NCBI GenBank assembly: GCA_945862355.1
Contig: CAMAYR010000023.1
Span: 1-34,857 of the forward strand
Source of the DNA: Devosia equisanguinis
Lineage (GTDB): Bacteria; Pseudomonadota; Alphaproteobacteria; Rhizobiales; Hyphomicrobiaceae
Length of the DNA: 34,857 nucleotides
Direction of reading: 5' to 3'
In this document: positions 2,218 through 31,771 of the stretch, one piece after another
Numbering within the stretch: the first letter of the stretch is position 1
Layout of the letters: each line of letters begins with the position of its first letter
The notes under the pieces: generated by a model
The model's input: the letters and a program-made list of their open reading frames with translations, nothing else
What the model was told of the DNA's origin: nothing
Database searches by the model: none
Position numbers and translations under genes: made by a program

Positions 2218-2289
2218 CTAGTGAGGCGTCGCGCCTGAATCGGACGGTGGTTGCGGCTATGATACGATTTTGGCGCGACGGGCCACCAG
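2218..2289 (+). repeat. Short (72-bp) copy of the dispersed hairpin repeat, internal deletion derivative
   Basis: CTAGTGAGGCGTCGCGCCT is the left end of the long copies (23357 and 31603). It continues directly into GAATCGGACGGTGGTTGCGGC, which in the long copies lies about 95 bp further on. The switch point is the GTCGCGCCT word that occurs twice in the long form, so this copy equals the long form minus the segment between the two words. The ends still form an inverted repeat (GTCGCGCC near each end). It lies between the FixK-like gene and the next ORF. Confidence 0.75.
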
Positions 2290-23356: not shown

Positions 23357-23521
23357 CTAGTGAGGCGTCGCGCCTTAGTTGACCGACGGTGCGGCGAGGC
23401 AGGTGTCGACTAAGGCGCGATAAACGCCTCACTAAGCAATTGTTGATTCCAGTGGCCCTCATGTCGCGCCTAAATCGGACGGTGGTTGCGGCTATGATGT
23501 GATTTAGGCGCGACTGGCCCC
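23357..23521 (+). repeat. Dispersed bipartite hairpin repeat, long copy 1
   Basis: About 165 bp. Module A: AGTGAGGCGT (23359) pairs with ACGCCTCACT (23424), and inside it TCGCGCCTTAGT pairs with ACTAAGGCGCGA. Module B: GTCGCGCCTAAATC (23463) pairs perfectly with GATTTAGGCGCGAC (23501) around a 24-nt loop (GGACGGTGGTTGCGG...). The copy at 31603 matches throughout in the same orientation. It lies between the 22246 gene and the aldolase gene. No ORF is carried. Confidence 0.85.
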
Positions 23522-23589
23522 AAGTGAAAACGGGCCCGTGCGACAACCGACAACCGACAACTTACAACGAGACGAGACCGGAGACCCCA

Positions 23590-30838: not shown

Positions 30839-30959
30839 CAATCCGATGCGCGTTGGCTCTTCCGCCCAGACGGCGACCGGCACCAAATCTGGAAACCTAT
30901 CGCGGACCGATAACGGACATGCATTCCGCTGCGGTCGCCATCCGCGGCGCTAGCGTAAG

Positions 30960-31602
30960 CGGGAGACCCCCCGGCTCTGCCGGGGAGGCATCAGCAGTTT
31001 GACGATTCCGGCGGTCCATCGACGGACTTCCACCGTGAGCAACCACGCACACGGAAGGAACTCCACCGATGAACCAGTATCAAGCCCTAAACCACACCAC
31101 CTGGGACTGCAAATATCACGTCGTTTTCATCCCGAAGTGCAGACGGAAGACGTTGTATGCTGGTCTGAGGCCGCATCTGGGTGAGGTGTTTCGAAGCTTG
31201 GCGCAGCAGTAGGAGTCGAAGATCGAGGAGGGGCATCTGATGATCGATCATGTGCACATGATGATCTCGATCCCTCCGAAATACGCGGTGTCCCAGGTGG
31301 TCGGGTTCATCAAGGGGAAGAGTGCGATCCATCTGGCGCGGGTGTACGGCGAGCGCAAACGGAACTTCGTGGGACAGCACTTCTGGGCCAGGGGGTACTT
31401 CGTCTCGACCGTGGGTCGTGACGAGGCAGTGATCCGGGAGTACATCCGAAATCAAGAGAAGGAGGATCAGAGGTTGGAGCAGCTCAATCTCTGGGGTCGA
31501 TGACCGCCTTCAGGCGGTACCAAGTTTTGTGGCCGCGTCAGCGACCACTTCTACCGCCTCGGGCGGTTCCAATCCTAAAGCCCCCGGCTTTGCCGGGGGA
31601 TA
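30960..31602 (+). mobile_element. IS200/IS605-family element (tnpA only), non-autonomous
   Basis: A single tnpA-type frame lies between two sub-terminal hairpins: CCCCGGC-TCT-GCCGGGG at 30969-30985 and CCCCCGGC-TTT-GCCGGGGG at 31581-31599. Two further hairpins, ACCGCCT-TC-AGGCGGT (31503) and ACCGCC-TCG-GGCGGT (31553), lie behind the gene. There are no terminal inverted repeats or target duplication, as expected for single-strand transposition by HUH enzymes. The right end abuts the dispersed repeat at 31603. Exact ends are not fixed. Confidence 0.78.
31069..31503 (+). pseudogene. tnpA: IS200-type transposase TnpA with an internal amber codon
   Basis: Reading from ATG 31069 (after GGAAGGA) gives MNQYQALNHTTWDCKYHVVFIPKCRRKTLYAGLRPHL... 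for 47 codons, then TAG at 31210. The same frame continues ESKIEEGHLMIDHVHMMISIPPKY...HFWARGYFVSTVGRDEAVIREYIRNQEKEDQRL to 31503. The HUH motif (DHVHMM) and the catalytic Tyr (REYIRNQ) both lie after the stop. Total length (144 codons) is normal for the family, and a Lys codon (AAG) is the likely original. Restart at ATG 31240 would lose the first beta strand. So active transposase is unlikely without suppression. Confidence 0.85.
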
Positions 31603-31771
31603 CTTACTGAGGCGTCGCGCCTTAGTTAACCGACGTTGCGGCGAGGCAGTTGTCAACTAAGGCGCGGGGAGTGCCTCACTAAGCCATTATTGATTCTAGT
31701 GGCCCTCATGTCGCGCCTGAATCGGACAGTGGTTGCGGCTATGTTACGATCCAGGCGCGACGGGCCACTAG
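31603..31771 (+). repeat. Dispersed bipartite hairpin repeat, long copy 2
   Basis: Same structure and orientation as the copy at 23357: ACTGAGGCGTCGCGCCTTAGTT...AACTAAGGCGCG...GCCTCACT, then module B GTCGCGCCTGAATC...GATCCAGGCGCGAC and the end CGGGCCACTAG. The loop GGACAGTGGTTGCGGCTATG differs from copy 1 at one base. The left end reads CTTACTGAGGC instead of CTAGTGAGGC, where the IS200 element joins it. Confidence 0.85.

Follow-up and report, generated by a model that had tools for sequence, protein, structure and literature searches.

What a short repeat that folds into two hairpins is doing at several places in one genome, and what could have carried it there, is the question raised by the stretch of Devosia equisanguinis DNA analysed here (34,857 nt, hereafter the window). 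An earlier note on this DNA had described three copies in which the stem keeps pairing and the loop keeps its sequence, and had proposed a function at the level of the DNA or RNA hairpin, with a transposase, a nucleoid protein or an RNA-binding protein as possible recognisers. We consider it probable that the repeat is mobile and non-autonomous, a REPIN-like element of ~165 nt that would move as a folded single strand and insert 3' of the tetranucleotide CTAG.

The sequence and coordinates given in that note hold, except that copy 1 extends 3 nt further, to 23524 (Table 1). The perfect 14-bp stem of module B is present in copy 1 as described, and in copy 2 (GTCGCGCCTGAATC/GATCCAGGCGCGAC) one A-T pair has become G-C beside a single A.C mismatch. 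The loop is nearly identical within the window, where the quoted sequence varies at one position; its description as invariant applies within this genome only, since across families just TGCNGC is retained. Absent from the earlier description were a 10-bp outer stem beginning with CTAG, a 4-nt bulge and the inverted relation of the two modules. In copy 1, module A has two stems, an outer one of ~10-11 bp into which most of the CTAG falls and an inner one of 15 bp; the loop measures ~20 nt, and 4 nt bulge out on the 3' side where the stems meet (consensus ATGA, ATAA in this copy). Because the reverse complement of module B resembles module A, the two modules form a mirror-image pair. The right end of copy 1 reads CAAG; of 45 right ends, only this one and one other depart from CTAG. 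Copy 2 is full length, but an IS200-type insertion has cut it off from its left CTAG, and the third hairpin of the window is consistent with a deletion derivative of the two-module element.

Table 1. Coordinates of the repeat copies, the IS200-type element and representatives of related families (window positions unless a locus is named)
Feature	Coordinates	Strand	Details
Copy 1 of the repeat	23357-23524		168 nt; order CTAG, module A, 13-nt spacer, module B
Left-end CTAG of copy 1	23357..23360	+	presumed target tetranucleotide; one CTAG between adjacent elements
Proposed mobile unit, copy 1	23361..23524	+	right tetranucleotide CAAG
Module A, copy 1	23358..23436	+	bulged hairpin
Module B, copy 1	23449..23524	+	bulged hairpin, bulge TCAT (4 nt) on the 5' side
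Inner arms of module B, copy 1	23463-23477 and 23500-23514		
Copy 2 of the element	31608..31771 (31605-31771 as full-length match)	+	original left CTAG now beyond the IS200 element
Third copy	2218..2289	+	single fused hairpin: left arm of A joined to B at common GTCGCGCCT
Left-flank CTAG of IS200-type element	30950..30953	+	
IS200-type element	30954..31607	+	left hairpin CCCCGGCTCTGCCGGGG; right end ...GCCGGGGGATACTTAC; between CTAG and copy 2's TGAGGCG
IS200-type Y1 transposase gene	31069..31503	+	in-frame TAG 31210-31212
Example loci of four further families	L019:1664-1832, L035:1014-1180, L115:422-589, L284:12-178		lengths: type 2, 169 nt; type 3, 167; type 4, 168; type 5, 167

The absence of further copies, which would have spoken against a repeat family, was not what the genome displayed; the repeat is far more abundant than chance would give. 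At least 97 matches were obtained by BLAST (40 of 104 candidates scored), a search with the loop alone matched 46 places, and a profile run over 603 kb of the window's own genome (G000, a draft assembly, 97% complete) recovered 46 copies, 43 of them full length, a count that is a lower bound for the genome. According to a simple codon-usage gene call, 34 of the 46 do not overlap predicted genes, predicted coding sequence making up 77% of the total. No orientation bias relative to GC skew, taken as an indicator of the replication strand, was seen (20/46), and open frames read over joined flanks gave no clear case of a gene broken by insertion, being mostly antisense. Two inverted copies on one contig (L032) were considered as a composite element and rejected, the frames between them reading as ordinary NUDIX-like and EamA-like genes. 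Many contigs of G053, G037 and G000 end inside repeats (e.g. L098-L102, L028, L041); short-read assemblies thus fall apart at the repeats, and the copy numbers are minimum values. Within the family the distribution is patchy, with 13 of 100 relatives and 12 of 93 well-assembled genomes carrying the repeat, each in its own version at 71-91% identity to that of the window, and searches of plasmids, phages and viral contigs returned no match. The version in G102 is closer to that of G000, which belongs to another genus (91%), than the version in G053, of the same genus as G102, is (~82%), a pattern that suggests transfer or separate bursts.

Covariation of the stems was calculated on 39 copies from 11 genomes. 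Both hairpins are paired in 94.9% of cells of this set. Pairs changed on both sides number 18 against 8.7 +/- 1.7 in shuffles, and the covariation score reaches 0.150 as opposed to 0.075 in shuffled alignments and at most 0.041 in slid registers, so that covariation, whose lack above background would have weakened the proposal, exceeds both controls; it is present in all four helices. The two largest classes of double change comprise 16 and 17 sequences and may reflect few events. Correction of quasi-palindromes during replication can also perfect stems without selection. The hairpin-level function proposed in the earlier note is nonetheless supported by the covariation of four helices together with one architecture found in five sequence-unrelated families and a loop motif common to them. 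Very stable folds and compensatory changes would also be expected of a structured RNA or a terminator retained for its role in transcripts. We regard such a role as highly improbable, given that Rfam contains no match for the repeat and that the CTAG boundaries, the CTAG common to neighbours in arrays and the insertion polymorphism are features of DNA mobility. The terminator version in particular is disfavoured by the missing enrichment between converging genes (7/44 versus 74/387 gene pairs).

The ends of the copies are informative about the way of insertion. Adjacent elements, whether of one type or of two, overlap by four nucleotides, exactly the CTAG. In G000, CTAG forms the right tetranucleotide in 43 of 45 cases and the left one in 29 of 44 (Fisher p = 4e-4), two of the 15 non-CTAG left readings being attributable to one frame offset and one IS200 disruption. 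The two ends disagree in 16 copies, and in 15 of these it is the left end that deviates. This combination of a variable left and a nearly invariant right end is evidence against target duplication; it is the asymmetry expected if the left tetranucleotide comes from the target and the right one is carried along by the element. MITEs with weak terminal inverted repeats, mobilised in double-stranded form by a DDE transposase that duplicates 4 bp of target (CTAG), would also have CTAG at both ends, and they are compatible with the arrays that share a CTAG and with the clean absence of an array from a relative described below. However, duplicated ends would begin equal and decay equally, which is at odds with the 16 discordant copies, and a DDE enzyme would not need a hairpin architecture retained over unrelated sequences. 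This explanation is accordingly quite unlikely. What the ends fit is a mode in which the element goes in 3' of one fixed tetranucleotide and duplicates no target sequence, as in the IS200/IS605 family.

CTAG is rare, with 381 occurrences where ~1957 are expected. An array in G053, composed of type 2 and type 1 elements, lies between GCCGCCT and GACCGAACGG, and the syntenic site of G105 reads GCCGCCT-CATT-GACCGAGCAG, with one tetranucleotide and no element. This comparison shows a clean insertion or loss, the divergence being too great to place the side from which the CTAG originated. An empty site for one G000 copy with a 322-nt flank was sought in congeners, which were too diverged for any to be recovered. 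At three loci of G024 (L056, L068, L081), CACG, GGCG or CGAG replace CTAG at the copy ends, possibly as a consequence of a changed target preference. Three observations favour the transposase among the recognisers proposed in the earlier note: the CTAG target, the CTAG common to neighbours in arrays and the array missing from a relative.

At least four further families lacking sequence likeness to the window's repeat but built on the same plan were found in the flanks of type 1 copies. All five have in common a length of 167-170 nt, a 10-bp outer stem, a 3-4-nt bulge, a 13-nt spacer (present in the example element of each family) and CTAG ends. When structure alone was searched for, 93 distinct bipartite elements came up, each 167-170 nt long; owing to the mirror symmetry of the plan, some of them are one element counted on either strand. 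In module B the bulge of 3-4 nt is situated on the 5' side of the inner hairpin, where a guide might lie, but its sequence differs between families. TGCNGC occurs on either strand in 7 of 10 loops, a number reached in none of 2000 shuffles; the motif was chosen after looking, for which the shuffles compensate by taking the best motif each time. The hairpins, the at least 46 dispersed copies, the covariation, the common CTAG, the asymmetry of the ends, the missing array and the at least four sister families together argue for a REPIN-like mobile element.

As to the enzyme, the earlier note had suggested looking for a RAYT or IS200 gene elsewhere in the genome, and it is the second that was found. 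The sole Y1_Tnp (PF01797) match of the genome is the transposase gene adjoining copy 2, which scores 140 bits against the NCBIfam IS200 model and 34 bits against the RAYT model, whose cut-off is 80. A RAYT as partner of the repeats was rejected on these scores, and no RAYT gene was found in the 97% complete draft. In one protein search the in-frame TAG of the IS200-type gene was read as lysine. The IS200 element is bounded by GGCGCTAG and TGAGGCG, so it is inserted exactly where repeats insert. The left flank of this IS200 group is CTAG in three genomes of the family (G000, G037, where it is the end of a type-2-like hairpin, and G102) and in 30 of 30 Acidovorax temperans copies, and the right end is ...TTAC. 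In other bacteria the bases 5' of the left IS hairpin seem to track the target (GGGAG[GA]C with CTAG, GGGAG[AT]T with CTAA and GGGAAAT with TTAA, read by eye at ~50 loci, L184-L226 of Acidovorax temperans and L183-L262). Such a match between the bases 5' of the hairpin and the target is predicted by the guide mechanism of IS200/IS605 (PMC8266576, PMC5934647), and judging from these readings the target of the group would seem to follow the guide in its own left end. In Acidovorax temperans, a repeat with CTAGTGTGGTGTCTC, whose start resembles CTAGTGTGGCGTC, lies beside IS200 copies at L185, L190 and L205; no hairpin pair was detected in it at these loci.

IS200-type Y1 matches are present in four of four high-copy genomes (G000, G053, G037, G102), in none of eight low-copy genomes and in 2 of 81 repeat-free ones (G040, G100). 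The associated probability of ~5e-6 assumes independent genomes, which they are not, G053 and G102 being of the same genus, and the Y1 evidence in G102 consists of fragments only. This co-occurrence fits mobilisation in trans and equally fits repeats that act as a source of rare CTAG landing sites. The IS200 might only land in the repeats and take no part in their spread, with the covariation arising from quasi-palindrome correction instead of selection. The IS200 copies of G000 and G037 do sit exactly at repeat ends, and known IS elements use REPs as landing sites (PMC1525189). One IS200 copy of G102, in contrast, lies outside any repeat, and the multiplication of the repeats would be left unexplained, as would the length, bulge, spacer and loop motif shared by five unrelated families. 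We therefore judge a mere landing-site relationship somewhat unlikely. No CTAG-ended hairpins were seen near 80 IS200 copies in other bacteria.

If a folded-DNA enzyme moves the repeats, it could also be one other than the IS200 transposase: a RAYT that escaped detection, a different HUH protein or a tyrosine recombinase. Its gene could lie in the few per cent that the assembly lacks, or be missed by PF01797. The IS200 end hairpins (CCCCGGCTCTGCCGGGG) are unlike modules A and B in sequence and spacing, and as the ends are unrelated the repeats are not simple IS200 derivatives; moreover, eight low-copy genomes hold the element without a Y1 gene, and the assemblies are of draft quality and interrupted at these repeats. 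On the other hand, the only Y1 matches in the four high-copy genomes are IS200-type ones, present in each, and it would take a coincidence for the true enzyme to have been overlooked in every one of them, for which reason such an enzyme appears unlikely. The IS200 transposase is thus a candidate mobiliser: its co-occurrence with the repeats is set against the unlike end hairpins, the stop codon in the G000 transposase and the missing hairpins beside IS200 copies of other bacteria. The lack of a RAYT and of an orientation bias counts against the REPIN-like reading.

For the REPIN-like mobile element, the following sequence of events can be envisaged. A single-stranded element, for instance on the lagging strand, would fold into two hairpins, of which a Y1 HUH transposase would read the bulge and the loop. 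The enzyme would then cut after both CTAGs, excise the unit and insert it after another CTAG. With less support than these steps, the enzyme may be the resident IS200-type TnpA acting in trans, a candidate because its group likewise inserts 3' of CTAG. If it is the DNA of the IS, rather than its protein, that determines the target, the repeats must bring their own guide; a guide like that of the IS200 group is not recognisable in all repeat families, and the CTAG of the repeats is perhaps held by pairing with the opposite arm of the outer stem. A broader claim, that the repeats form a new class of gene-less 165-nt units mobilised as single strands, with two mirror-image bulged hairpins read by shape and TGCNGC, in which many unrelated families depend on one non-RAYT IS200-type transposase inserting after CTAG, is put forward here only tentatively and as doubtful.

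Five families alike in shape, length, spacer, CTAG ends and loop motif, and not in sequence, set the features that an enzyme acting on folded DNA has to recognise (shape, bulge and loop) apart from those that drift freely, and constitute natural substrates for testing the recognition of folded DNA. Should an ordinary IS200 transposase indeed move them in trans, REPIN-like repeats would need no domesticated RAYT. The repeats also show how short sequences that break draft assemblies can colonise a tetranucleotide 5-fold under-represented, and the IS200-group loci with CTAG, CTAA and TTAA targets, in Acidovorax temperans and others, provide naturally occurring data on the guide rule.

Among known systems, REPINs and BIMEs consist of two bulged hairpins in inverted orientation that bear a tetranucleotide tag (PMC3116915, PMC8266576, PMC3733652). 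Like those associated with a RAYT (TnpAREP), the repeats described here are inverted pairs of bulged hairpins of mirror-image structure with a tetranucleotide at the outer ends, mostly intergenic, present in many copies and arranged in arrays. Their tag is CTAG, whereas that of REPINs is GTAG or GTGG at the hairpin foot, and their modules measure ~75-80 nt as opposed to ~20-65 nt for REPs; they have in addition a fixed 13-nt spacer and the tag on both arms of module B, and the RAYT gene, usually flanked by repeats in REPIN systems, was not found in this genome. The GTAG- and CGTC-tagged palindromic repeats (PMC3733652) are likewise tetranucleotide-tagged palindromes in dimers, and the CGTC-tagged ones, apparently also with no transposase dedicated to them (PMC3733652), provide a useful parallel. 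Both kinds differ in the tag and in their shorter modules, and the repeats described here have one fixed dimer length that holds across sequence-unrelated families. With IS200/IS605 elements and their non-autonomous derivatives, the repeats have in common insertion 3' of a specific tetranucleotide without target duplication and hairpin ends, and with the resident IS200 the same CTAG. Unlike them, they lack the IS end hairpins and take the cleavage tetranucleotide into the outer stem. RIME and Bru-RS of Rhizobiales, likened here by description only, are also intergenic and consist of two large palindromes with a total size similar to that of these repeats; we know of no CTAG rule for them. No description of CTAG-tagged bipartite repeats was found in the literature searched, which is no proof of absence. 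Although they depart from REPINs in three of the features tested, namely the tag, the module size and the RAYT gene, the repeats are REPIN-like in their working, and REPIN/RAYT is the nearest known system.
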